DNA of 64,000 nt from Owenia fusiformis (lineage: Eukaryota > Annelida > Polychaeta > Sabellida > Oweniidae), in NCBI GenBank assembly GCA_903813345.2, contig CAIIXF020000011.1, positions 20,317,754 to 20,381,753 on the forward strand. Direction: 5' to 3'. A model generated the notes under the pieces. The model was not told where the DNA came from and did not search any database. It saw only the letters and a program-made list of their open reading frames with translations. Shown in pieces: positions 1-57,900 of this stretch. The position numbers were made by a program, and so were the translations under genes. The stretch's first letter is position 1; each line of letters begins with the position of its first letter.

Positions 1-27
1 CAAAAATGGCCAAAATCACTTAAAATG

Positions 28-356
28 CAGGGGCGGATCTGGGAACCAACAAGGGGGGGGCCCAAATTTCAAGTCAGAGAAAAAAACGTCCGCGAAAAAA
101 AAATTTGGGCCCCTAAAATCCAAAAGTGGGCCCAAATTTTGAAATTTTGAGGCCCATTTTCCTCAAAATTTGACCTGAAATTAAAAAATAAGGCCTTAAA
201 AGGCCCAGTAATCACCAAAAAGGCCCATTTTTTGGATCCTGAAGGCCTTATTTGGCTCAAAAAAATTTTTGGGCCCAATTTTTTTTTTCTGGGCCCACCC
301 AAGGGGGGGGGGCCCCAGGCCCGGCCCCCCCCTCCCCTCCCCCTAATCCGCCAGTG
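28..356. mobile_element. MITE-like element, GGCGGATC family, copy 1
   Basis: About 330 bp bounded by imperfect inverted ends: CAGGGGCGGATCTGGG on the left, and CCCTAATCCGCCAGTG on the right, whose complement starts CACTGGCGGATTAGGG. The interior is rich in G and C runs and in the AAATTT and GGCCC motifs, and has no coding potential. Close relatives lie at 26676-26742 (left end only), 39763-40031 and 63364-63538, so this is a dispersed family. Non-autonomous DNA transposon is an inference; no target duplication was identified. Confidence 0.7.
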
Positions 357-1244
357 AAATGTGCTCAGAATAGTGAAAAACTGATTGATTTGAAAGAATT
401 TTCCCCCTGGCTATGGGCCTGTTAACCATCTTGAAATGATATCTGGAAAATATTTGCAAGAGTTGTGTTGACATTTATATATAAACTAAGCTATAAGGTG
501 ATCATAACTTTGTAGCTTGTAGGTTAACTTGACCATTCTGATATTAATTAATCATTTAAGTCTATATACATGCATCATTTGACTAAAAATAATTGTATGA
601 CATGAATTACATCTTCTGTTTGATCACAGTTTCCAAGGAAATCAAATGATTTTTAGCTGTGCTTCACTTTGTTATTATTCCGAGCCTTCGTTGCTTCTTT
701 TTGAATTAAAGAAAACTTTCTTTATCAAAGTGATATCTGGCTTTTAACTTGAGATAACAAAGAGAGGCTTGCATCCTTCTGAAAAGAATTAATTTTTACC
801 TACTTGAAATGAAAAAAATCCTGAAAAATAGGCATGTATACAAGTTTTGTGCCAATTTGAATAAAAAGTCCTACAGAGTCAACTCATCTCATTTCATTGA
901 AAAAGATGAAATACTTAAGAAGGATTCACACATCCAGAGGACCCAAATGCTTATGGTCTCCATCAACTCTCTTAAAACTACATGCTTTTTATCACACTGA
1001 AAAATTGCTATATTATTGTCTTGTACTAATAGGTGTGTGCATATATACATGTATATGTATGTATGCATGTTTGCGCATGCATTCGGGTGGGTGGGCATCA
1101 CAGGAAACCTGTCGTTTAACTTTTTACAGATGTAAGAGAAGACTAATACAAAGATCTTATTAGGTTTTGGGCATACTGGTAAATAACATGGTTCCTAATA
1201 TATGTCTTGTTGGTGTAAGATGTGTGGATCTCACATAAAGGCAT
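357..1244. other. Intergenic, downstream of FPPS-like gene
   Basis: AT-rich sequence with no exon I can support. Around 1031-1072 there is a short alternating purine-pyrimidine stretch made of TATAC, ATGTA and TGCATG. Nothing else stands out. Confidence 0.5.
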
Positions 1245-3908
1245 CTAATCACCTGCACTGTACTCAAGGAAGACTAAATCTAGAAGATACGTAAACAGTC
1301 CCTTTGGAGGGTTCCCTTCGCACTTGTGAATGGCCTCCATCACTTCATTGTAGCATGCCCTTTTAGCCTCTTTGTATACCTCTGGTATGTTCATCTCATT
1401 ATATACATCCAAAACTTTGTTCATCTTTACCACATCTTGTTGGCCATAGTTCTCCCTCAGTATCTCAAGTTGGCCTGGTGTTGCTCTCTCAAGTGCTTCT
1501 ATGATCGGCCATGTACACTTGTTCTCCATGATATCACTTCCTGAAAGAAACATTAATTCAGTCCAGCACGAATACATACAATTGACTCTTAATCATGTCA
1601 GTCTCTAATATGAGTCACTATACAGGTCTTTTTACATGATCAGTTATATTATTGACCAATGTAAGCTCAATGAATATAGGTATTGCATTTTTCTTGAGAA
1701 TGTGCTTTGGAATGTTCAGCTATTTGAATTTTAAAATATCAGAGTGTGATATATATTACTGAAATCATAAAGATTTAAAGATTTTATTAGCAAAATGTAT
1801 AGTACAATCTCACCAACTTCCTCATCTTCACATGATACAATATAACAAATATATTAGTAATAAAATGACAAAAATGGTATGTTATCTAAAAATGCACAAT
1901 AATTTTGGATGATTTAAGGATAGGAACTGATGTGAGATGTATCAAGGTAAAGGGTAAATGCTTTTGATTTAATTACATACAGTATACCATTTTAAAACTA
2001 TTTTAACAATTTTTTTATATACCCTACCTCTGGTTCCATCGTCATATTGATTTTCACTGTTAAAGCAGTTTTGGTAGTCATCTGAAAAGTGCCAAAATAT
2101 GCCAAGTTTAGTTGCTATGTCTTCAGCTCGCTGCCACCATATTTCATCCTTTACCCCTGCCAGTGTCAGAGCAAAAGCTATCGGAAAGAACAGCCAAGGT
2201 ACTGTGTTATACGTGTATATTGTTACCATTGTTCCTCTCGAAAGGGCGGTGATGTCTTTTTTTGACGGAGTCATGTCCACATTCTGTCCAATCAAGTATT
2301 TTCTTTCTGTGAGTAGGACTCTTTCTACTAGGTCCATGTAGTATGGTTCTTTTCTGAATTCTTTTCGCAATGTCTCAAATACAATAGATTGCATGAAAGA
2401 TGCATCATTTATCGCCATTAGTCCAACTTCTGGCCTCTTATACCAACATGGCCGACCTTTCCTAGTTTCTTCATGATCCATAATATCATCATCCACAGCA
2501 AAACTAGAGGTCTGTATTTCAATACAGCATCCAAGAATGAGCATCTTTCGTCTTTCATCTTCTGTTGGAACAACTGGAGCAACAATACTGCAGTAAGCAT
2601 TATAGAGAGGCAGTCCAAACCTATGACTACTGAATGGTACATTGTTATGTAACACTTCCCTGAATCGCTTTAGAGATGGTTCAATTTCAGGAGGATAATT
2701 AGACAATTCAGTTATGTCACAGATATGGGCTTTTAGGAACTCATCATATTTGTTCACTTCTTTCTCAAGTGCTCTGTTCTTCAGAACAGCACCATGAAGC
2801 AGCGTTTGATGTTCTTTACCTTGATCAGCGTTTCTCTTGGAGGATTCCATTATAGATATGTTTCTCACAGCTCTTGCTTGAAGCTTTGACACAGCCATCA
2901 CTTAACAGGAAAGAAAAAATACATGTATTCATGAATATAAAGATGTAAAAAGATGTAAATGGAACAATATATTGTTTTCAAAAATATTTCATCTAGATCC
3001 ATGCATACTAGTATATACATCCACATTGATGTATTTACAAAGAGGATTGAAGATATCAGTATCCGTCATTGGATATAAATGATATTTTAGAAAACCATAT
3101 GATTGTACATTTATCACATGGTACATTGTAGTGAATATTGATGAGAAACCGATTCCAGAAATTGCTCCTGTGATTGATTTTAAATGTGTTCAGCTGTTCA
3201 AATGTATTAAAGAGCTGATCAACTTTTAAATTCTAGTGTGACCAATTTGCTATTTCTTGTCATCGCAATTCTAGGAACACCCCTCATTGGTTCAGTTCAA
3301 ATCTTACAGCTATTACTTTTATTAAGATAGTGGTGCAATTCGCAGAGATAGCTAGAGTTGACACGATTGTGAAAAGTAAAACAGGATTTGATGAAAAAAC
3401 ACTTCTTTTGATGTCTTTATTTCTGTGAAGATTAATGAAGAACGTTATATGGATTCATTTCACTTAATCATATTGTTGCTATATTATTTCAATAAACAGC
3501 TCTATGTTTCCTCAATTATCGTGCCACTTACATCATATTTTATATTTTCCTATTTGAACATCTTAAACAAGTTGGAATAATGTTCACTAAAGCGGCTTAA
3601 AACAGACGTTAGCAAGTCATGATTATGGTCACTGGAGTCGGCACAATTCATCAATAACCTGACTCTGACATCTGTGACTATTTAGTTATTTACTGTACCA
3701 TTAGTTTAAGATGGTATCAAATCCTAAGCCTTTTGATCATCATCTTCTGTATTTTTTACATCATGAGTCTACGAAAAGTAACTTAGATAGCGGTATGAAA
3801 AAACAGATAACACTGTATAACAAAGCCTAACAAACGATATCATAAGCTGGTCATGATGTTAAATTTCAACTTACCTGAAACTTGTTGTATTAACCTATGA
3901 AGAGACAT
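1245..3908 (-). CDS. FPPS-like protein, candidate IDS-type terpene synthase
   Basis: Three exons on the minus strand: 3908-3875, 2900-2028 and 1540-1245. All junctions are GT-AG and in phase, giving 400 aa. The short first exon encodes MSLHRLIQQVS and joins a basic, Arg/Ser-rich stretch that could be a mitochondrial leader. Fold and order match farnesyl diphosphate synthase: first Asp-rich motif DDIMD (about 149-153), then CWY, GQNVD, and a C-terminal exon containing SDIMENKCTW and ENYGQ. Family members condense IPP with allylic diphosphates. Here the GGKYNRG loop of FPPS reads FSSHRFG (about 101-107), the KYKT lysines read TYNT (about 241-244), the second Asp-rich motif is DDYQN (about 285-289) instead of DDYLD, and the basic C-terminal tail is missing. 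The IPP site therefore looks lost while metal and allylic-diphosphate binding is kept. I infer a terpene synthase; a decayed or regulatory FPPS paralog is the alternative. Family membership is secure, the activity is not. Confidence 0.88.
3462..3612. repeat. Dispersed repeat, copy 1 (second copy near 43172-43322)
   Basis: The stretch containing TTTCAATAAACAGCTCTAT, then a TTGAACATCT-like block and AACTTAAA-type sequence, recurs in the same order at 43172-43322 at roughly 75-80 percent identity by eye. No termini or target duplication could be defined. It lies upstream of the FPPS-like gene or within its first intron region. Confidence 0.5.
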
Positions 3909-18143: not shown

Positions 18144-21100
18144 ATGAAGTATAAACTGTTTATATTTTGGGTATCATTGACTTGGTAAGTTTCTTTTTAT
18201 TAGTACTTGATCATATATTGACTTTTTCTGAATTTTGAAATTAAAATAATAGTATCACTCAGTATATTTAATATATACTGAAAAAATTGATTTATCTTGT
18301 TTATTATCTCATTTGGACGTAGTGAAAGATACAAAGTGACACAAAAAATGCCACCTACTTATTTTAGAATAACTTTCTCAATAATTAAGGAATCTGTGGA
18401 ATCTTAAGGAACTTTTCTTGTGCAGATCGAGTGTTCACTGGAGAAAAGATCGTCGTACTTGGATAAGCATCAACAACTTTGAGATAAAAGAAAGCAAATA
18501 TGTGACAAAAATGAATGAATGTTGCTATGCTTTCCAGTCTGACAGGAACAGTTCTGATACGAATTCTGCCTAAAACTGAAAAAGAGGACAGGGGGCATAT
18601 TCCTCAATTTCCTCCTCACTGGGAAAAGGCCCCAGCCTCACTAGCTGAATTCCCAAGGAGTAACAAAACGATAAATATCAACCCATGGAACTACTTGCAC
18701 AGACAAGGAATGTACAAGAGTATTATTGATGCAACTGGGAAACAACTTAGTGGAACCACCGAATTAGGTGGAAATTTAAACCTTCTTTGGGGTCTTCCTT
18801 TACAGCATGGGTGGCAATTCGAGACTGGGAGGTTGAGAGATTTTACAAATCAAACACTTAGTGGTTTTGGTAGGGTAACTCATTTCAAAGAAAAATCAGA
18901 AATCTTTTGTATATCTCCAAAAAGTTGGTGGGCAAGTATGAATTATTATTTGGCAGCTCTGCCATTTCTTGCGGCTATGGATGTAGGGTATTTTGATAAA
19001 GATATAAATGGACTGAAAGTTGAACTGAAACCTCCAGATTTTAATGTGGAAAAGTTTTGCTATGGGATCGAACACTGCAAGAAAAAAGAAAATAAATTAA
19101 TGAAAAGTTTGCTCAATTTCTTCAGCTACCTCAAAAATTGTTCAAAGACACGATGTGAAACTGACAAAGCAGCGGAAAAATTATGGACTGCACATGTCGC
19201 AATTATTGAAGCTGGTATGAAATTGTTTGATTGTGAACTTAGACTTCTGTCATCAGCTGAACAAAGATTTGGAACAGGTTGGGTGAAAACAGTCACACTG
19301 TTAGCTGCAGTGAGATTCAGAACAAACATGATACAGACTTCAAAATTCCAGGTAAAACCATGGGCTTTCAACTAGATAATTGAAAGCCCATGGTAAAACT
19401 AAAACGGTTGGCTCCGTTATTTTTCTCATTTTGCTCTCAAAGTCACCTTAACATTAAAATAAAATTAGATGATTTATGAAGTCTTAAATTTGCACCTTCA
19501 ATAGACTTTGAAATGTACCTTCTTTTCAAGCATTGATTTTTACTAAAAAGGTTATCAAAGTTAATTGATGATGCAACTTGTTAATCAATTATTTTTAAAG
19601 GTGCACTATACTTAAGTTAAAAGAAAAAAAATCATTGAAACATGTTACTCCCACACAAAGTTTGATTTGCTTAATATTGAACCAAGAGAAAAATAACTCA
19701 CCTAAAAAGGCATTTTAATTTCAGAGATCATTAGACATGCATGCACATGTTAAACAAAGTGCATGTTTTAAATTATTATTGATTTAAAAGATGGCAACAC
19801 TTCTATAAAAAAATGAATGTATCATGTAATACAAACAACTTCGCCATCTTTCAATGACATTGATAAAAACTTGATATATAAATCTTGACAGATCGAAAAT
19901 ATTTTTTGATAATTTATTGTTAGCTTTGATTTGGTCCATTTGAACTGTTGTTGGTGTTAAATGAAAGATAAGGTTCTTATCAATACATTGGGCATACTCT
20001 TGTATTTAAATGTAAGTCTTTATTTTGCCCAAAAATGTTAAAAAATATCCCAAAGTGGGCCTTTAATTAATCACTGACCTGATTCTTGAATGAGAAGTAC
20101 ACTCCCCTCCATAAGTTTGGCAAGCTTAGCTCCCCCATTGAACTATGTGTTAAAGCCTCTCTCCGTTTGAATTTCTATTTACTTAACCTGCGATGAAAAT
20201 ACTTATAATATTGATGGAAATGTAACTTGACTTTATTTCCAATACCTCCAAATTTTTTCAATTTTTTCCTCAATTACAATAGGTCATAGTGTATTTTAGT
20301 TATTTTTTGTGAAAATCAATAGAAACCAATGGCCTCCAATGGAATCTGATGATATCCACATGTTAAGTCAAAGTAGCATACCCAATGTCAAGTCAATACA
20401 TCCTTGCTGAACTTAATGACCTCAACCTCAGCCCATGTGGTTCCAAATGCTTAAATATTTAATTGACATTGTATTCTTTACACCTTAAAATGATTCATTT
20501 TGTTAATGGGGAAATCATAATGGAGAATGCACTAGATCCTTTACATTATTAAAAGGTTATCAATTTGAAAGCTGAGAGGTATGACAAGATAAAACTTTTA
20601 CTTTTACTACTTTCACCTACAATTTATCAATTTCAAAAGCTTTGATATTTTCTGAACAGTAAAAGTACATTCTAAATCAATGTTAATATGGCAATTGCAG
20701 AAGCTTGGCCTACCCAAGAGAATCCTATGGGAAACTGATGCTGCCCCCTATATCCAAGACATGTCCCCAACAGAAAACACCTGTTTGTATGTTTTAGACC
20801 TGCTTCTATACTTGGGACAAATTATTTGGTAAGCTAATATATAAATGGGTTTTTCACATATGCTTTGTCAAAAATGAGTATGTTTAAATTGATACCATTA
20901 CACAAAAAAATGGTATTGCATTGCAATAACTGATAATTGTGTCCCCGTTTTCTTGATCTTTCCAAAGTGTCTCTTGCAAAAGACCGATAAGAGTGGATTT
21001 CATAAAGCAGAATGTTATTTTTCATTTGAAATAATGATACTAATTAATAACAGATAATACTGTTGTAAATAATCCATATTTCAAAATCATAATCAATTCA

Positions 21101-22666
21101 ACTAGAAAAACAGCAACTCCACGGAGTAGCAAATCCCACCGAACAAAACATGTTTTGATAAAAAAAATTGAGCCAAATTCATCCACTGGTATTTGAATTA
21201 TCAAAGATTATGTTTTTATGAAACATGGTTGCCATTTTGAAATTCAGCTGTCATCTTTAGATTTCTTTAGCAGAGAATGTTCGTCCAATGGTATCTGGGT
21301 TATCAAAGGTTACTTTTTTAATGAAAAATGGCAGCCATTTTGAAATTCAGCTAAAGCCTTTGAAATTTCTTCTGAAGCAGATCTCCTTTTTCCCTAAACA
21401 TCAGCATATAAAATTGGAACCAAATCCATCCACTAGTATTTGAGTTATCATTAATTACGTTTTTTTTTACGAAAAATGGCGGCCATTTTGAAATTCAATG
21501 GCCATCTTGAAAATTCATTTTTGAGCAGAACTTCTTTGTCTCTAGGCATCAGCATATAGAATTTGAACCAAATCTGTCGACTGGTGTTTGAGTTATCAAA
21601 GGTTACGTTCTTTTATGAAAAATGGCGGCCATTTTGAAATTTAGCTACCACCTTGAAAATCCCTTCTCGAGCAGAGCTCCTATGTCCCTAGGCATCATCA
21701 TGTAAAATTTGAACCAAATCCATTCAATGGAAATTGAGTTATCAAAGATAATGTTTTTTATGAAAAATGGCCGCCATTTTGAAATTTAGCTGCCATCTTG
21801 AAAATCCTTTCTTGAGCAGAGCTCCTATGTCCCTAGGAATCAGCATCTAAAATTTAAACTAAATCTATTTGATGGTATTCGAGTTATCAAAGATAACGTT
21901 TTTTTACGAAAAATGGCCGCCATTTTGAAATTTAGCTGCCATCTTGAAAATCCTTTCTTGAGCAGAGCTCCTATGTCCCTAGGCATGAGCTTCTAAAATT
22001 TGAACCAAATCCATTCAATGGTCTTTGAGTTATCAAAGATAACGTTTTTTTACGAAAAATGGCCGCCATTTTGAAATTTGGTGGCCATCTTGAAAATGTC
22101 TTCTTGAGCAAGGCTCCTTTGTACCAAGGCAACAGCATATAAAATTTGAACCAAATCCATCCACTAGTATTTGAGTTATTAAAGATTATATTTTTTCCGA
22201 AAAATGGCCGCCATTTTGAATTAAGCGGCCATATTGAAAATTCCTTCTCGAGCAGAGGTCCTACACCCATAAGGCATAAGCCTATAAAATTTGAATGAAA
22301 TCCGTCAACCGGTATTTGAGTTATTGCCCGGACACACGAACGGACGGACGAACGGACGGACGAACGGACGGACGAACGGACGGACGGCTTCTCTATATCC
22401 CCCTCGAACTTCGTTCGGTGGGATAATTAGGAAATAATATACTATATCTTAAGTATTATCAGGTCATTTATCATATTCTTGCTTGATATGTTGATATGCT
22501 TCGACTTTCTCCAGGGGGCTACATAGTATCCACAGCGAATGATCTGATGTGCAATGAGGCCACAAGGAAGATAGGGCGCGCTATCATGACAGATTTGCTA
22601 CAGAGCCCTCTTTCAACAGCAAAAGATATAATATCATTATTATGGACTACTTTAACTGGCTGTTAG
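18144..22666 (+). CDS. LEG1: LEG1-like secreted protein (DUF781/Leg1 family)
   Basis: Plus-strand exons: 18144-18184, 18538-19351, 20701-20828 and probably 22515-22666. Exon 1 (MKYKLFIFWVSLT) joins exon 2 in phase 2 to make a hydrophobic signal peptide. Conserved blocks match vertebrate LEG1 in order: FPPHWEKAP, INPWNYLHRQGMYK, NLLWGLPLQHGWQFETGRL, FCISPKSWWASMNYYLAALP, KFCYGIEHC, LWTAHVAIIEAGM and GTGWVKTVTLLAAVRF. Exon 3 adds GLPKRILWETDAAPYIQD, the counterpart of GMPPRILLNTDVAPFISD. LEG1 is a secreted, mucosa/liver-enriched protein in vertebrates; its role here is unknown. The start at 18144 is preferred to the ATG at 18515, which lies in the intron. Exon 4 carries a good 50-codon frame ending LLWTTLTGC, but with the listed bases it is one G out of phase after exon 3. 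Used as listed, translation ends nine codons in. A palindromic insertion abuts the exon 2 donor. Confidence 0.88.
19359..19392. mobile_element. 34-bp palindromic insertion with 7-bp target duplication
   Basis: Arms CATGGGCTTTCAA and TTGAAAGCCCATG around an 8-nt loop. Flanked by perfect direct repeats GTAAAAC at 19352-19358 and 19393-19399. The left repeat is also the splice donor of LEG1-like exon 2. Other copies of the palindrome lie at 45567-45591, 45630-45655 and 52691-52715. Confidence 0.8.
21135..22424. mobile_element. Element with eight ~146-bp repeats in LEG1-like intron 3
   Basis: About eight tandem units spaced 144-148 bp. Each carries AAAAATGGCGGCCATTTTGA, a CATCTTGAAAAT block, TGAGCAGAGCTCCTATGTCC and TTTGAACCAAATCCATCCAC. 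Unit marks fall at about 21218, 21324, 21472, 21617, 21763, 21908, 22055 and 22199. The array ends in a 12-bp GAACGGACGGAC minisatellite (22336-22388). The outer ends ATCCCACCGAAC (left) and GTTCGGTGGGAT (right) are perfect inverted repeats. Probably a non-autonomous transposon; no protein coded. Confidence 0.8.
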
Positions 22667-23872: not shown

Positions 23873-26675
23873 ATGCCCATACTCAAGGGGCGAGGAGGAA
23901 AATTCTCAATAAATGGTGTATAGTTGGTTTGGCAGCATTTTCAGATAGGGGAGAGTCTTGGATGAAACTTCCACCTAGGTGATAGCTTCACAGAGTGGTA
24001 GGAAGTTCTTTTTTTTGAGGAGTTAGCCCCCCACCCCCAAAAAACACCCCACCCTGGGGAAAAAATTGTTCACACTAAATAACCTTAGATATTTTGATGT
24101 TTGTAAGTGGCATACATAGATATTATATATATGAATCACTTGCAGTATAATTGATGCTGATAACTCCTAAAGAATTTGAAAATTAGTACAAAGTATGTAC
24201 CCCAGGGGGCAAATTCGTGACTCATTTTCTTACTATTTTGATTCTAACTTTTCAATTAGACACTGTAAGAGGTTAAAAGAATTCATGTGGAGTGCCCAAT
24301 AGCAGGGTTAGTAACTCTGAAAGATGCAAAGCCATGGAAGAGGTAGGAGCTGAGAAAAAAATTGTTGATTTTTCGAAAAATTTGACATTTTTGACAGCTG
24401 GATTTTGTGTATGACTATAGCTGACCCTTATAATTTCTAGATCCATCCCTCTATGATGATATTTATGGTTTAATAGTGTGGAACTAAGATGTGAAACATA
24501 ATTTAGATGAGTTTTAAATAAGTTAAAGGTTTTAAACAAGTCCAAAATTTGAAAAATTGTAAATATAAGGTTTCAAATTTACGATTTTCAGGTATAGCCA
24601 TGGCGGACCCCGATAGTTTCTAGATCCATCCCTCTATGATGATATTTATGGTTTTATAGTGTGGAACTAAGATGTAAAACATAATTTAGATGGGTTTTAA
24701 GGAAGTTAAAGGTTTTAAACAAGTCCAAAATTTGAAAAATTGTAAATATAAGGTTTTAAATTTACGAATTCCAGGTATAGCCATGGCTGACCCCTATAGG
24801 GTCTAGATCCATCCCTCTATGATGATATTTATGGTTTTATAGTGTGGAACTAAGATGTAAACATAGTTTAGATGGGTTTTAAGGAAGTTAAAGGTTTTAA
24901 ACAAGTCCAAAATTTGAAATATTGTAAATATAAGGTTTCAAATTTACAAATTCCGGGTATAGCCATGGCTGACCCCTATAGTTTCTAGATCCATCCCTCT
25001 TTGGTGATATTTATGGTTTTGTAGTATGGAACAAAAGATGTAGAACATAATTTAGATGGGTTTTAAGGAAGTTCAAGATTTTAAACAAGTCCAAAATTTG
25101 AAAAATTTTAAATATAGGGTTTCAAATTTACGAATTATAGGTACAGCCATGGATGACCCTTATGGTGTTTTCATCCATACCTCTATGATGAAACATATAT
25201 TTTTTGAGTGTGAAACTAAGAAATAAAACATACCGAAGATGAGTTTTAAGGAAGTTTAAGAATTTTAACAAGTGCAATGTTTGAAAAATTGAGAAATATC
25301 AAAGGAGCATGGAAAGTATTGCAACATATTTCAGACAGTCATATGTTAGATTTTGTCTGTTTCCTGAGGATTTAAGCAGGTGCATATGATAGGCCATTGC
25401 ATTACCTACAGGAAAAGAACTCTTAGAGATGATAAAATAGTTTGGACTTTGAGACAGCGAAGGTGCAAACAATCCACCCACATGTTTTTTCGGAAATGTT
25501 GATTTTCAAGCCCTTTCACCCCTGCTTTTTAAATTTTTGTTGCATCAATATGTTGCGTTTTGAGACATAGTTAACCCATAAAAAGGAATAATAAATTTCT
25601 TTTAGATAAAGCAGAAAACAATATTTTCCTGTTATTTTCCCATAGGGAAAACTCATGTGCTCCATTACTTTCAGCTTAATTTTGGTCACCCATATTTGAT
25701 ATCTTTTAAACCCCTGATGGAATGCATTATTTCTTTAAAGGGGTTAACTGTGTGTCAAAACACAACATATTGATGCATGTGGGTGGGTTGTTTGCACCCT
25801 GTCTCAAATAGAAATTATTTTATCATCTCTATGAGTGCTTTTCCTGGAGGAAATGCATTGGCCTAACATATGCACCTCCTCAAATCCTCAGAAAATAGCA
25901 AAAATCCAACATGTGACTGTCCTAAATCTGTTGCGATACTTTCAGTCCTCCTTTACGATTTCAGGTATTGCCTTGGATGTCTCTCTTTTTGAATGTATGA
26001 CTTTTTAGCTTAGAAATTAGATGTTGAAAATATTGTGGTCAGGTTTGATCCATGTTACAAGTATTGTTAAAAGAAAAATCATTAGAGTTGAGGACCTTAC
26101 CCTAGAGCTATAGAGTTCCTAATGGGGTGAGAGGTTAATAAATCCCCCCCCCCCTAAAGTGTAACTGCTCTTAGGGATATCATATACAGTGTGATTGATT
26201 AAATGGATTATAACTAATTAATTATTATTTGATGATATTTATTATGTGATATAGCATTTTTACTTTTTCACATCAACATGTTCGATGTAATGTTCTACAT
26301 TGTCAAAATACATAAAGACATGGTTAATTAAAAGAAACATGATTTCTCTATATTTTGTTATGCCCATACTGTAATTAAGCAATGATCATCTCCTAATACA
26401 AGATATTATTATAAATTATCAAATCATAATCACTACACTCCCAATAAAACAACTTGTCATCAGGCAACAGTAATTATTTGGGAAAATAAGGATTATAAGG
26501 ATCATACCCCGCTGGGCCTAGAAACTCCCGTTAGTGCAATGAGATTAGGAACTCCAGGGTAAAAGGGTCTTGTCACACTAAAATCTTCATGTAGATCAAA
26601 AAATTATATATGGTGATATATATGATCAATATGTTTCAAACAAACAGACATTGTAGAAAATGTTTACATACTGAC

Positions 26676-28087: not shown

Positions 28088-29497
28088 TTCACGACCTTTC
28101 ACTCCATCTATATGCAGCAGACTAACTGCTGCAACAGGTATATATTCTACACCTGGTCTCTGAGCTATGATATCATAGTTGATACTATTATGCTCATAAC
28201 CTTCAATTATCAGGGCTCATTCAAGGCTGTACCTGAATAACGTGAATTTGAGACCAATTTTGAGATTAATTTTTCAAATTTTGCACTTGTTTAAAACCTT
28301 GAACTTCCTTCAAACTCATCTTAGGTATATTTTACATTTTAATTAAATACTCTTAAAACTATATATTTCATCCCTGAGGTATAGATGTAAAAACCATAAG
28401 GGTCATCTTTGGCTATACCTGAAATTCATAAATTTGAAACCTAACATTTACAATTCTTCAAATTTTTTACTTGTTTAAAACCTTAAACTTCCTTAAAATT
28501 CATTTTGGATATGTTAAATCTTAGTCCCACACTCTAAAACTGTATATTTAATCATAGAGGTATGGATGTAAAAACCATAAGGGTCAGCTGTGGCTATACC
28601 TGAAATTTGTAAATTTGAAACCTTATATACACAATTTTTCAAATTTTGGACTTGTTTAAAACCTTAAACTTTCTTAAAACCCATCTAAATTGTGTATTAC
28701 ATATTAGTTCCACATGGCAAAACCATAAATATCATCATAGAGGAATGGATCTAGAAACTATCGGGGTCAGCCATGGCTATACCTGGAATATGTAAATTTG
28801 AAACCTTATATTTACAATTTTTCAAATTTTGGACTTGTTTAAAACCTTTTACTTCCTTAAAACCCATCTAAATTATGTTTTACATCTTAGTTCCACACTA
28901 TAAAACCATAAATATCATTATAGAGGGATGGACCTAGAAACTAGAGGGGTCAGCTATAGTCATACACAAAATCCAACTGTCAAAAATGTCAAATTTTTTG
29001 AAAAATCAACAATTTTTTTCTCAGCTCCTACCATTTCAATGGCTTTGCATCTTTCAGGTTTACTAACCCTGCTATTGGGCTCTTCCAATGAATTTTTTCA
29101 ACCTCTTACAGTGTCTAATTAAAAAGTTAGGATCAAAATAGTAAGAAAATGAGTCACAAATTTGCCCCCTGGGGTACACACTTTGTACTAATATTCAATT
29201 TTCTTAGGAGCAATCAGCATCAATTATACTGCAAATGATTCATATATATAATATCTATGTATGTCACTTACAAACATCAAAATATCTAAGGTTATTTACT
29301 GTGAACAATTTTTTCCCCGGGTGGGGTGTTTTTAAGGGGGTGGGGGGCTAACTCCTCAAAAAAAAAAACTTCCTACCACTCTGTGAAGCTATCACCTAGG
29401 TGGAAGTTTCATCCAAGACTCTCCCCTAACTGAAAATGCTGCCAAACCAACTATACACCATTTATTGAGAATTTTCCTCCTCGCCCCTTGAGTACCA

Positions 29498-41345: not shown

Positions 41346-42975
41346 TTTATTTATTTATTTATTTATTTAGAAAAAATGTATATACAATAATAATACATGA
41401 CTAATACTGACACCAAATGGCATATAAAAGTATAATGTCAAGTATCAAAAAAAAAGTATCACTAGCAAATATAAAAAATATATATATATAGTCTAACTAG
41501 TTTACAAGGGTATATAGGTATATGAGTTTCATATATACAAGTATTTACATGATATAACATAGTACAATGCATACACTAAGCATGTATGTACGTTGTGTTT
41601 AAATGATGTGCCATGACTATTGTAATATACAATGCGTGGATAGTAAATAAAGATGTTTAATAAGACAGATTTTTTATAAGTAGCTTGACAAGAGGTCAGA
41701 TTTGTAGGCCTTTTTAAAGGAGGTTATAGATTTTGACATTTTTGTGGAATTTTTAAGAGAATTCCATAGTGAAGGCCCATTCCGTTTTATGGAAAATTTG
41801 TTCGCATGTTCAATATGGAAGTTGTCACATTGGCGGGTATTATAACTATGTGTATCACTGTTTATTTGGAAATTTGTATCGAGTAGTGAATTTAGTATTT
41901 GGTCACCATCTTTTACTTGGTACATGAAAATTGCTGTATTCAGCTTATTTATATCATATATATTCAGAAGATTAAGTTCTTTGAATAATGGAGCTGTATG
42001 ATCAAGGTATTTTTTTCCTAAAACAATGCGAACAAATCGTTTTTGAATCATGTGAATTTTATTAAGATAAGATTTGGAGTTGTTACCCCAAATAATATTG
42101 CAGTAATTGAGTTGAGAGTGAATAAGAGAGTAGTATATTCTGAGCAAAGCACTTTTTGTTAAAAGATTATGGACTCCATACAAGACCCCAATGCACTGAG
42201 AAATCTTTTTTTCTAAGTTTTTGATATGCTCTTTGAAAGTTAAATTGGCATCAATAGCTATTCCTAAGAAAGATATAGTGATGTCTTGCTTGATTTTGGT
42301 GTCATTTATTTTGAGAAAATGATTGTTAGAAGTTTTACCTGGTCCAAAGAGAATCCATTTAGTTTTGTCAATGTTTAAAGAAAGTTTATTGGCATTGATC
42401 CAGTCACTGAGCTTTGAAAGTTCTTCATTTGCGGTGTCAAATAGAGTGGGTAAATCTTTGTGAGAGGCCAAGAGATTGGTATCATCAGCAAATAGTATGA
42501 ATTCAAAGAAATCAGAGGATTTGTAGATGTCATTTATGTAAAGAAGAAATAAAATAGGACCAAGCACTGAACCTTGAGGGACACCATGAGATAATGAGGT
42601 TTGTTTCGATTTACAGCCATTAGAAATAACAGTCTGAAGACATTGAGTTAAGTAACTTTGAAACCAAGAAAGGGTAACACCGCGCATTCCGTAGTGTGAG
42701 AGTTTATCTAATAATATATTATGATCAATAGTGTCAAATGCTTTTGAGAAGTCTAATGATATCCCTAGTGAAGGAATTTTGCTTTCATTTGCACATCTTA
42801 TCTTTTCAATAAAAGTTAGAAGTGGCATGTATGTAGACTTTTTCTTCTGGAAACCAAATTGGTTTTTATAAAGTATTTCAAATTTGTTTAGAAAGCTTAC
42901 AAGGCGAGAGTGTACGCATCTCTCGAGTAATTTTGAAAATACGGATAACACTGAAATGGGCCTGTAGAACTATTA
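41346..42975 (-). mobile_element. 5'-truncated non-LTR retrotransposon (reverse transcriptase)
   Basis: Minus-strand LINE. The open frame from about 42970 to 41674 begins mid-domain at YRPISVLSVFSKLLE. It carries the reverse transcriptase motifs DFSKAFDTIDH, SHGVPQGSVLGPILFLLYIND and FADDTNLL, then the usual C-terminal part of jockey/CR1-type ORF2 (SWFQSYLT, FLGIAIDANLTF and YNTRQCDNF). The frame is intact over 425 codons. Upstream the frame is closed, so the endonuclease and N-terminal part are missing: typical 5' truncation. Downstream of the stop is an AT-rich 3' region ending in (AAAT)n at 41346-41371, read on the minus strand. The intact frame suggests a fairly recent insertion. Confidence 0.92.
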
Positions 42976-44895: not shown

Positions 44896-45566
44896 AACAG
44901 TACTGTCAACCCCCAAAGATTTTCTCGCGGGACAGATTTTTAGACCCAGTGCCCAAAATTTGCGGGATTTTGCGGGACATCTACTAAATTCGCGGGATTT
45001 CGCGCGACATTTAAGGGATTTGCGTGATTGCGCTTATAGGCCAATTTTTTTTATCAAATTCTCGGGATTTCGCGGGACCATTCGAGGGACAAACACCCTA
45101 ATTGCGGGACAGTTAACAGGTTTACCAGCAAAAACTTCATAGAGGGACAGATTTTCTAGAAAAAGTGCCCTAAATTTGCGGGATTTCGCGGGACATCCAC
45201 CTAAATTTGCAGGATGTCCCGGGACATTCAAGGGATTTGCGTGATTTGGACTAATGTAAAAGCGTGTAAAAGTACTTAAATCAAACTTTCAGATACTGAT
45301 TAATCAAATATAATGCACCGTTACATTGTAACTTAAATAAACGTCAACATAACTTCACAAAATACGCATAGCATAGAAATATTATTAAACTTTATTGTAA
45401 TTTATCAAAAACAAAAACCATGCTTCAGGTGTGAGTATCGTAATCTAACACGAAATTCAAAAATTTGGAACAATACTTTGCACTTCTGGCGTCGTGACCA
45501 AATATATATGAAACGCTTACCCCCAAAATGTTATATATCAAAATGTACCTTTTCATATACTGTAGG

Positions 45567-45655
45567 CATGGGCTTTCAATTGAAAGCCCATAATGTTATA
45601 TATCAAAATGTACCTATTCATATCCTGTAGGCATGGGCTTTCAATTGAAAGCCCA
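45567..45655. mobile_element. Two 25/26-bp palindromes in a 63-bp tandem duplication
   Basis: CATGGGCTTTCAATTGAAAG plus CCCAT at 45567-45591, and the same with a final G at 45630-45655. The intervening AATGTTATATATCAAAATGT is also present left of the first copy, so a palindrome and its flank were duplicated as a unit. The outer flanks CTGTAGG and GTATAGG agree at five of seven positions, possibly a decayed target duplication. Confidence 0.75.
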
Positions 45656-45707
45656 TGGTATAGGGGTTCGATTAATCTACATCAAATTATAGGGAATGAG
45701 GTTACTT

Positions 45708-51981: not shown

Positions 51982-54900
51982 TCACTTGTTGTCCACTGTG
52001 GTAAGAGCTGGAACTCCTTGTTGTCCTTGTCCAACAATATAGCATGCTTGTTGCAACTGGTGTGTACTTGATCCCTGAGAATAGAACATATAAAAAGAAA
52101 TAATCATGGTGAAAATTACATGTAGAGCTACATTGTTTAAGGATGTAAGTCACATGATCTGCTCAGTACAAAAAACAATTTATACTTGTAATATTTGCTT
52201 AAACTATAGAATCTACAAAATTTTATCAATTTACCAATCTTTCAAATGTTGGTATTATTATCAATTTATTTATTATTAATTTCTCCTCAGTAAATTATAA
52301 GGTTCATGCTTCTTGAAAGTTTCCACTAGCTTCTGCAGTACCAATTGGCAGATTTTATAGTATTATGCCTGATGGCCATCCAGTGTTGGACCTCTGAGTC
52401 CAACTCAGGAAGAAATTTCCAATATGGCCATTTGTTCAAAATAAGTTTAATAAAATGTAATCTCTCATAAGGCATTTAAATGACAAAATATCACCAACTA
52501 GTTGCTCACAATATTATAAGTTCAGTAGATGATTTTGAAAAAAATAGACTGGTCAATTTGAAGCAAGTTGAAAAAATACCTTTTTACCCTGAGATCGTCA
52601 TTGAAGGTGAAATCTCAAATGTAAAGTCAGATTTGAACTTCTGAGAACATTTAGCCTAGATGATTTTGAAAAAAAATTGGTCAATTTGAACATGGGCTTT
52701 CAAAGAAAGCCCATGATTTGAAGCAAGATGAAAAAGACCTTTTTGACCTTGAATGTCTAAAGATTTGACCTTGAGAATGTCATTGAAGGTCAAATATATA
52801 GTCAGATTTGAACTGTTGAGAACTTGTAGATAATTTTGAAAAAAAATTGGTCAATTTGAAGCAATACGGTTACTTACACTTGTGTTGCAACAACAGACAG
52901 CCTTACAGCAATAGGCTGATGCTGTGATACCCAGCACTGCCTCGACTAGAGATATCACCAACAGTAAACCATTTATAGCAACCTTGGCACAAAAACAGTC
53001 TTAGTACTTTATTAATACCGGCCGTATAAAAAATGCAACAAACAGTTATCCTGTAAAACCACAAAACCAGTGATGACTACATCATTTTCATTCAATGTTC
53101 CATAAAGCCACTTCCCTCCTCTTTCAAATGGTATGTCATTCATTCACATGTGGTCATGGTTGGCCAAAGTTAACTCTGGACCAAGTTTCAGAATTGCAAA
53201 AATGAGTACAAAGGCTAGGTGCTAATGGAAGTTCTCCTGACCTGAATTGTTGTGACTTTTTCTTTTGAAGCTATGTCATGAGCAGAGTGTTGACCATTCA
53301 TCTACCAGATATTGCAAAACTTCGAGAAATAATTGCCAATGGGGTGCTTTTCTCCGCTTTAAACCCACAGATGACTCACAGCTGAGCCATGATATGGAGA
53401 GATGAGTGCATCTTTGTGTCCTAAGAAGTGATGACAATTTGGAGGGGTATAGGATTTATTATTGTAAGAGTATGATTTACAGTCTATATGACACCTGCCA
53501 CACCTTCTTCCAGGTCCCTATGCTTCATACACTGACTTTTGCTATGTTTTAAACTTGGTCCCGAGCAGATTTTGGCCCACTTTGCGAGATCAATGATTAT
53601 TTGGCCAAACATGAATCCCTGTGAATGAATGAAATACCATTGAAAAGAGGAGAAATGTGGCTTTGTAGTACATTGAATGAAAAGTTTGTTTGGTCGTTCG
53701 TTCATTCATTTGTTTGTTAGTTCGTTACTAAAATGTTTATTAAAGTCTCAAATAACAAACATAGAATATCCAAAGTAAGCACAATACTCATTTTATGTGT
53801 CAAAATTTGATGTTTCACCCTTAGGAAAAAAACAACCATTTTTTCCGAATTTCAACCGTTAAAATCCATTGCGCAACCATTACAAATCATTGCATAACCA
53901 TTGCTGCAACCAATTGAAATGGTTTCCAACCATTACATTGCAACCATTAAAATTTGGTTGAAAACTTTGGTTGCATATCATTGAAATTATGGAATCATTT
54001 GCAACCATTACAAACCATTGATTGTTTAAGTTGCATTTAACCAAATGGTTGCAACTATTTTCAACCATATTGTGGAAATTATTTAGTTTAAGAATGAGAC
54101 AATTTGAAACATGAAGAACATACAAGTAAATTGAATGCATTATTATGTTTCAAATTACAGTAGTTCATGTTTATGGGCATATTATTTCTAATTAATTGAA
54201 GGGAATAAGGTTTATTCATTTTTGGCACTGGATATGACTTCAAGTTCATTCTCATAGGCATATTATTTCTATAAAGAATAAGGTTTATTCATTTTTGGTA
54301 CTGAAAATTACTTCAAGTTCATGTTCATAGAGATAGTATTTCTATTTTATTGAAGAGAATCAAGTGTATTCATTTTTGGCACTGGTCATTCTTGTGTATG
54401 TATGTATGTATATATTTATTGCCCTTTATATAAAGGAGATACATGTATACAAATTATGTAAATGTTAAATTGAAAATAATCACTATTTACAAACAAACAA
54501 TATTGCTGTTTTTGACTGACGACGGCGCCTAGCTACCGCGTAGACGCACGTCGCCGACCAAAATTGGCCTAGCACCTAATTGTAACGCAATTATAAAAAA
54601 ATGACTATATTTTACAAACATTCATTGTTTTGTTGTTGTTTTTTATACTGACGACGACGCCTAGCTACCGCGTAGACGCACGCCGTAGGCCTAGATAGAC
54701 CTGTTACCTAACACTCTTGAGGTTAATAAAAAATGACATTATGGATCTGCATTTTCTATAAAATTAAAGGAAGACATACATGCATCTGAACGGCTGCAAT
54801 TTGTTGTTGCTTTTTTGTACTGACGACGACGCCTAGCTACCGCGTAGACGCACGCCGTAGGCCTAGATAGACCTGTTACCTAACACTCTTGAGATTAATA

Positions 54901-57900
54901 AATAATGACATTATGGATCTGCATTTTCTATAAAGATGAAAAGGAAGACATAGCATATCATCATACCTTCCCCAAGGTCGGTACTGCAGTACTGTCTGAA
55001 AGTATGAGATGCTTTCAATATCTTGTAAGCTAGTAAAAGAAATATACAATTTTTGTAAATTGAAGAAAGGTGGTGTTGCCCTATGGTGCAATTCTAAATT
55101 AGTGTGTATAGTAAGTGTACATAAATATAAATACAAATATGCGAGTAAAACTAAAATGTATTTATAGCTGCTTAAGAGATATAATCGTTTGTTGCAAATA
55201 CGTCAGGCTGCCGCGTTGACGTTGCAACTACCAATCAAGAAAAAACAAACATAAAGCATTGCTCATTATTGTACCTTCCCTAATGTCGGTACACTCAGAA
55301 TAAATACTTATTGCATATTACCCCCTGGTCAGCCCATGTTCCTCCCTTGAGGGCCACCCTTTCACGCTGATAAAGTTACATTAAGTTTGTAAACTTGTCA
55401 AGTACCGTTGACGACACAAATATTGTTGCATAACTATATATGCCATATCTTTTAAAAATACAAGTAGTTGTTTGTTTGTAAAGTGCAACTCTTCAATTCC
55501 TATGCCAAGAATGTTTTTAGTGTTCATTTGGATACCCCATCCGCAGCAATGATTGCTAAGTTGTTCTCTATAAATAATATATATATTTTCTGGGCATTTA
55601 AGTAAGAAATGATCTACGTCTTCTTTTTCATAAGTGCTGCACATTGAGCATATAACTGATTTATCTTCGGAACCTCTATATTTTGATCTAAGCGCATGTT
55701 CATCTGCTAGCAGTTTCACCATTATTTTACAACTACTTAAAGCAAAAGGGAACAGTCTTGCAACTCTCCACCATATAATTGGCCTCAGAATTTCAAAGTT
55801 ACCCATTCTAAAAGAGTTTAGGCCCTTGTACATTAGCGATTGGAAAAATGTCCTTTGCATCTGAACGGCTGCGATTTGTCTATACACAATATTCTTCCAC
55901 CTATTTTTGGGGATGAACATTTTACAGTCTACCATATTTAGAACATGGTTATATAAATCGTACCTTTTTGATGTCAGTAACATGCATTTTATTGGAGAGA
56001 AGGTATTACATTCATTGTTAACATGCAGCATTTTTACAAATCTCATTGTGAAAAGACATTTATATATATTTGCGCTCGGGAGTTGCAATAAACTCCAGAG
56101 AAACATCATTCTTAAAAAGTCAATATAAAATTCAACGTCCATTAGGCCCAGGGGCAAAGTTGAAATGGGAATACTAGCTGAGGGAGGCAGAGATTGAATT
56201 CTCCGTCCTATTTCTCGTTGTGTCTTTTCTAGAACAACTATATCATTCTGTTGATAGTTGATAATATGGGCACCGTATGTCATTGTAGGTATGGAGTACG
56301 TTTTGTATATTTGACATGCAGATGTTGGGATTAGGCCTCCGCAGCCACTACCTATACCGAGCAGAGCAGTGTACTGCGATTTGCCCTTCTTACATTTATC
56401 CTGTACATAATCAGAAATATCATTATTTGTTGAAATTGGGATTCCGACATGCTTCACATAGTCAGATTTTGCAATTGATTTACCTCCGATATTAAGTTTC
56501 TGAGTTGCACCTAGCTCGATTTTACTATTAAAAACGAGAAACGAACACTTATCTCCACTGATTACTATGAGCATGGAGTAGATCAAGTAGCACTTGCATG
56601 TTTTCAAAGGAATTCGACAAGATGCACATGTCATCGGCATATGAAGGACTAACGCAACTTAACGAACCTATGGTTGATCCCTTGTTTAGCTTAATCATGG
56701 AGTCAATTATATCTGCCATATAAAGTTGGTAAAATAGCATGGACAGGACACCGCCTTGATGGACACCCTGTAATATTGGAAATAAGTCAGAGCATTTTCC
56801 GCCTACCAAAACCGAGCAACTATACCGCTTATATAGCACATACAAAATTTTCCATATCTTACCGCCAATACCACAGTTGTGAAGTTTAAAAAGTAGGCCA
56901 TCTATCCATACAGAATCAAAAGCTTTTCGGATATCTGTTACTGTTAAAACTACCATTTTACCTTGTTCTACATTTTCAGAAATAGTTTCTTGTTCGAGTA
57001 ATGATGTATGGATTGATGAACATTTCTCGACAGCTGCCCCTTGTAATTTAGGGATAGCATTTAGAACGGGTGCTTTTACATGAGTTAAAATAATGTTGTC
57101 AAATAATTTAGTTTGTAGTTTATTTGGAAATTCCTTCTTGATTCATTCAGTTTTACTGAACAATACAACAAAACATTCTGTGGAAATTTTCTGTTTTTCT
57201 CCTGTCTCAACAAAAAAATGTTTCTGACTAAAAGTACATACATACATATTATAAAACATTGTATTGATTGTATTTCCTGCCTCTTATTTATGATTTGGAT
57301 TAAGCTAGTGCCAAAATAACTGCTTCTTCAATATCAAAGAAGTCTTATTACAACAATTAAGTAGATTAAACTGAAAATGTTTCCAAAACATGATTTTGAA
57401 ACATCAACATCCTTGTATTTATGCTTTGGATTAGGCAAGAGCCGGATTGATTGTCTTTTCTTCAATATCATTTACAAATCAAAAAATATTAATTACTATT
57501 GGATTAAACTTTAATCATAATGACTGAAAGGGAAATATCTTAAACACTTGAATAGATGATATTTCCTTTTACTAGACATGGTTTTATGCCTATGAGCATG
57601 AACTTGAAGTTGGATATGTCTCAAAATTGTATTATGACCTTAAGTTAACTATCGCTAGAAAAAAGAGAATTCATCAAGACCATAGCTGGCTTCAAAAATC
57701 TTAATGTGAATCTCATCTAATTTACTATGATTGTGTCATTATTATGGTAGGGGGAATTCAAAAATAAATTATTCAGACAAAAATAATTCTTAAAAAAAGA
57801 ATTAATTTGTAATGATTTTGTTAAACTATCAAAACAGAACTTTATCTAATTGGCTGTTCAATGGTTATAATTAGCATTTCAATGGTTATAATTAGCTTTT

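Follow-up and report, generated by a model that had tools for sequence, protein, structure and literature searches.

Short palindromes inside 7-bp target duplications in Owenia fusiformis are most likely excision footprints of a P-like DNA transposon

The genome of the annelid Owenia fusiformis harbours very short palindromes enclosed by 7-bp target duplications, one of which, 25 bp long, lies in the 64,000-nucleotide stretch of contig CAIIXF020000011.1 analysed here (positions 20,317,754 to 20,381,753, hereafter the window). We consider it very probable that these palindromes are footprints left by the excision of a cut-and-paste DNA transposon, which most likely belongs to the P superfamily; the 25-bp unit is most likely one such join, a scar and not a traveller. 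A preliminary description of the window had reported this palindrome between two copies of ATTTGAA, with the empty site preserved in neighbouring tandem units, and its coordinates and sequences were borne out, as listed below from the window sequence.

52691-52715, unstranded: 25-bp palindrome, CATGGGCTTTC-AAA-GAAAGCCCATG, read as an excision footprint
52684-52690, unstranded: left 7-bp target-site duplication, ATTTGAA
52716-52722, unstranded: right 7-bp target-site duplication, ATTTGAA
52551-52566, plus strand: adjacent tandem unit, in which the target GGTCAATTTGAAGCAA is uninterrupted (empty)
52849-52864, plus strand: second neighbouring unit with the uninterrupted target GGTCAATTTGAAGCAA

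Read as a footprint, the 25 bp comprise 13 nt from one end of the element and 11 nt from the other, with an extra A between them. The pattern CATGGGCTTTCN{0,12}GAAAGCCCATG has three matches in the window and none in each of 100 shuffles. When the window was scanned freely for palindromes (with arms no shorter than 11, a loop no longer than 12 and exact 7-bp flanking repeats), two loci were returned, at 52691 and 19359, both belonging to this palindrome family. The companions of the 25-bp unit are the following.

19359-19392, unstranded: 34-bp footprint, CATGGGCTTTCAACTAGA (18 nt, end A) joined to TAATTGAAAGCCCATG (16 nt, end B)
19352-19358, unstranded: left 7-bp duplication, GTAAAAC, of the 34-bp footprint
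19393-19399, unstranded: right 7-bp duplication, GTAAAAC, of the 34-bp footprint
45632-45657, unstranded: 26-bp perfect palindrome, the same ends joined at AATT
45567-45591, unstranded: second copy of the 26-bp palindrome (25/26 bases), duplicated with a 65-bp tandem unit

The 34-bp footprint stands directly behind an open frame matching Leg1 (PF05612; window 18515-19399) that ends in CAG|GTAAAAC, resembling a splice donor. Since it is this GTAAAAC that is duplicated around the footprint, an element seems to have been inserted at, and then to have left, an exon-intron border. The palindrome at 45632-45657 has flanks that match at 5/7 positions (CTGTAGG and GTATAGG) and sits in a repeat with other copies in the genome: the window carries a 65-bp tandem repeat at 45522-45664 with a palindrome copy in each unit, and the same pair of palindromes occurs at seven other places, so that this footprint was spread by another repeat family.

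The whole 498-Mb assembly (525 contigs) was searched for exact palindromes retaining 11 nt or more on each side. We found 900 with a gap of 0-12 (22-34 bp), 149 with a gap of 13-40 (35-62 bp) and 18 with a gap of 41-71 (63-93 bp), one place possibly counting in more than one of these classes, and a reversed-pattern control gave 0 in each. The number of sites thus drops with length, and among the 18 longest matches eight are the 65-bp tandem repeat, these including the seven places mentioned above, several are adjacent palindromes and a few are short elements. Flanks were compared in 82 rows, comprising the first 50 matches listed of the 900, 29 of the first 50 listed of the 149 and the three of the window; they represent 81 places, C1:19645941 being entered twice. 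A perfect 7-bp duplication was observed in 48 of the 82 rows and a match of at least 6/7 in 61, while perfect duplications of 5, 6, 8 or 9 bp were observed in none, and pairing left flanks with the right flanks of other sites gave 6 matches in 6642. The earlier expectation of hundreds of copies with 7-bp duplications is therefore supported by the 900 and 149 sites and by the 61 rows, and the event was a genuine one of insertion type, with a 7-bp target duplication. Nine rows lie inside one other repeat family, which carried the palindrome along when it was copied; contrary to a possibility raised at the outset, the copies therefore do not all belong to one larger repeat family. The 48 perfect duplications, taken in both directions, define a palindromic target, T..GTNNNAC..A, with T three bases outside at 79%, G1 at 51% and T2 at 77%, plus the mirror image.

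The interior of the palindromes is informative as to their origin. The 61 palindromes with a duplication of at least 6/7 were aligned to the ends of the elements, and each could be resolved into two element-end pieces. Although the reference ends run to 25-26 nt, the longest kept end was 13-16 nt in 9 sites, 17 nt in 13, 18 nt in 15, 19 nt in 22 and 20 nt in 2, and exceeded 20 nt in none. The longest pieces therefore measure 17-20 nt in 52 of the 61 sites, an approximate and not a biochemical reading of a staggered cut. A composition of exactly 17+17 nt, giving 34 bp, was rejected because kept ends extend to 18-20 nt. The two pieces share 1-4 bases at the join in 27 sites, are joined bluntly in 15 and are separated by 1-14 extra bases in 19.

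These features can be compared with what is known of P elements. The P transposase of Drosophila makes a staggered cut, at the element border on one strand and 17 nt further in on the other (PMC7776569), so that the flanks keep 17-nt 3' tails. Joins left by excision of P{wa} in flies without Rad51, as given in Table 1 of PMC2895639, are bounded on either side by the 8-bp duplication, between whose copies lie up to 17 nt of CATGATGAAATAACATA (the kept end reading CATGATG...) followed by up to 17 nt of the inverse sequence; they comprise microhomology joins, a single blunt join and insertions that were in part templated from nearby sequence. The palindromes of O. fusiformis resemble the P footprints of Drosophila melanogaster in having a duplication on both sides and inverted end remnants that form a near-palindrome (up to about 34 bp in P), and microhomology, blunt joining and extra bases (templated in P) are common to both. 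They differ from them in their 7-bp duplication, in place of an 8-bp duplication with CATGATGAAATAACATA ends of up to 17 nt, and in kept ends of up to 18-20 nt. Duplications of 7 bp, with the consensus GTANTAC and a palindromic target, are reported for Galileo, a Drosophila member of the P superfamily (PMC2775673 and PMC4168063), and the 7-bp duplications and the palindromic target with its GT...AC core are to this extent shared. Galileo has long, internally repetitive terminal repeats, unlike the elements described below, which are short-ended, with 18 bp common to all four and a longer likeness in two. The P-like element Pdre2 of zebrafish has the terminal repeat CATACCTGTCAAC (PMC10983969), which, like CATGGGCTTTCAAC here, is short, starts with CAT and contains TCAAC, a short likeness compared by eye; the duplication of Pdre2 differs in being 8 bp long. 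The sites found here thus have a duplication of the 7- or 8-bp kind that marks the P superfamily, in a palindromic GT...AC target. The footprint layout of fly P-element joins, the 7-bp duplications of Galileo and the Pdre2-like ends together point to a P-superfamily transposon, with duplications like those of Galileo, as the source of the excision footprints. Literature searches on palindromic footprints of DNA transposon excision gave no match, and among the matches listed in a search with the letters CATGGGCTTTC all were unrelated by title.

Larger elements with the same ends, of which the preliminary description had suggested seeking an autonomous one, are present in the genome. The end CATGGGCTTTCAACTAGA occurs 487 times in forward and 493 times in reverse orientation and the end CATGGGCTTTCAATTAGA 252 and 249 times, counts that include the ends within palindromes and leave out C-type ends (CATGGGCTTTCAAGAGA). 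Among the first 100 of the 980 CATGGGCTTTCAACTAGA matches there are at least six inverted end pairs 537-542 bp apart. Four elements, whose ends are written CATGGGCTTTCAA, were read, and all four are flanked by a perfect 7-bp duplication.

L045: 5069 bp, perfect 7-bp duplication GGCTAAC
L046: 542 bp, perfect 7-bp duplication GCTTAAC
L047: 537 bp, perfect 7-bp duplication CACATAC
L048: 132 bp, perfect 7-bp duplication GTTTGTG

The ends of L045, L046 and L047 are alike well past 18 bp; those of L048 are alike for the first 18 bp and then differ. With their inverted ends, their duplication and their non-coding interior, L046 and L047, of about 540 bp, are like miniature inverted-repeat transposable elements (MITEs), unlike the palindromes, which are far shorter (25-38 bp) and variable in the middle. 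A further pair of ends 2975 bp apart in L109 was rejected as an element, its right end being a footprint itself; this locus (1-3035) contains within 3 kb a type B end, a frame of 203 aa and a complete footprint, so that the pair of ends mimics an element. Larger relatives, of 132 to 5069 bp, thus exist; an autonomous one was not found in the searches described next.

Elements of the P superfamily encode a GTP-dependent transposase of the THAP/RNaseH type. P transposases exist in this animal, as indicated by 13 genome matches to the P-type RNaseH domain PF21787. The 10 kb read around each of 12 of these loci contained, at up to one substitution, a sole near match, a single CATGGGCTTTC end with one substitution in L041; a looser scan of the P-type loci returned only scattered end matches with 3-4 substitutions, and the 13th locus, read over 3.1 kb only, gave no end match. 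A tblastn comparison of the 5069-bp L045 with six P-type reading frames gave no match at E 1 or better, and PF12017 had 0 matches, as did its controls. Unconstrained searches around the P-type genes for 7/8-bp repeats next to inverted ends of 12 bp yielded weak candidates only, of which the best (11/12, in L042) is splice-donor-like on both strands and was taken as chance. Four of the P-type loci (L034-L037, on C2, C4, C11 and C10) are copies about 99% identical across most of the 10 kb read, carrying a frame for a P-type transposase that reaches 591 aa in a repeat that extends beyond the 10 kb.

The sequence of events that we propose would begin with a transposase cutting one strand at the outer border of the element and the other about 17-19 nt inside, each chromosomal flank thereby retaining a single-stranded tail of terminal repeat. 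As the two tails come from inverted repeats, they could pair with each other at short self-complementary stretches (AATT, CTAG), and the paired tails would be sealed by end joining of the microhomology or polymerase-theta type. The target duplication would then be left enclosing a palindrome of 22 to about 38 bp. Two of these steps we infer, namely the staggered cut and the identity of the transposase, P membership having this status because no autonomous copy was found and 12 of the 13 P-type loci do not carry these ends.

Several observations weigh against this interpretation. None of the 12 P-type transposase loci read over 10 kb carries the ends, and no element with these ends was seen to encode a transposase; the autonomous copy may have been lost, have been missed or belong to another superfamily. 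To judge from the kept ends the cut lies at 17-20 nt instead of at 17 exactly, and this edge is approximate because the references for end types B and C rest on single places beyond 17-18 nt and type D is assumed. Of the flank rows, 21 fall below 6/7, eight being copies of one other repeat family (5/7) and the remaining 13 sharing one to five matching bases; moreover, the rows are not a random sample, since nearly all genome rows lie on contig C1, and footprints with fewer than 11 nt on a side go uncounted by the pattern.

That no P-type transposase with these ends was found in the 13 loci searched would also be expected if the footprints were left by a transposon from a different superfamily, described or not, with 7-bp duplications and a long staggered cut. 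The T2/A6 target preference resembles that of hAT elements. Members of the hAT superfamily generate 8-bp duplications, and not one of the 82 rows is perfect at 8 bp. As the 7-bp duplications, the GT...AC target and the ends starting with CAT fit relatives of P as well, we regard another superfamily as unlikely. For a chance palindrome or a template-switch artefact nothing speaks except the palindromic sequence itself, and with 0 matches expected in the window, 900 and 149 genome sites against a control of 0, and the 7-bp duplications, its probability is negligible.

Two further explanations dispense with footprints altogether. The preliminary description had taken the palindrome itself for the mobile unit, and palindromes of 25-38 bp might indeed be moved in trans by a transposase that needs the terminal repeats only, as the hundreds of copies with 7-bp duplications would allow. 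Such a unit would repeat one sequence at independent sites, whereas the 61 sites hold 47 distinct junction sequences, 38 of which occur once. The other nine recur, each at two to four places with different duplications (23 of the 61 sites in all), which could be read as transposition, particularly in the three that have no shared bases at the join. Six of the nine, however, have 2-4 shared bases, where repeated independent joining is expected, and one of the three without, 37 bp long, joins pieces of 18 and 19 nt, which approach the longest kept on either side. Mobility of the palindrome also leaves the cut-off of 17-20 nt per end unexplained. Given the diversity of junctions, the absence of any end beyond 20 nt and the P-excision layout given in PMC2895639, this claim is not supported, and we judge it very unlikely. 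Alternatively, the palindromes might have arisen by extreme internal deletion of elements during gap repair, in keeping with the few short intermediates that exist, such as one of 69 bp at C5:7894534. The end points of deletions are not expected to stop at 17-20 nt, as all 61 sites do without exceeding 20, and the class of 63-93 bp comprises only 18 sites, eight of them the 65-bp tandem repeat, which makes this origin highly improbable too.

Interpretation as excision footprints thus removes what had been claimed as the smallest mobile element ever and puts in its place a mechanism whose predictions the data match. The footprints are ordinary in kind; what they provide is a large and useful natural set of repair junctions. 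On balance, we lean towards the view that the genome holds about 1000 natural, heritable repair junctions from a single P-like group that cuts 18-19 nt inside its ends and makes 7-bp duplications. On this view the lineage, for which no coding copy has been found so far, now shows itself chiefly by its scars, and these form a natural archive of end joining in this animal. The kept ends suggest that genome sequence alone can reveal the long P-type stagger, which was measured in Drosophila, and the roughly 1000 scars could serve to study how ends are joined in an animal not studied before. In other genomes, too, very short palindromes with target duplications may deserve to be read as footprints before they are labelled mini-transposons.

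Other repeats are present in the window. Reverse-transcriptase frames on the minus strand at 41674-42969 and 55381-57142, with PF00078 matches at 41674-42969 and 56549-57142, are probable non-LTR (long terminal repeat) retrotransposons. Long tandem arrays with units of 146 bp and 183 bp occupy 21284-22324, 24420-25299 and 28268-28957, and the arrays at 24.4 kb and 28.3 kb, with their 183-bp units, seem to be one family in opposite orientation.
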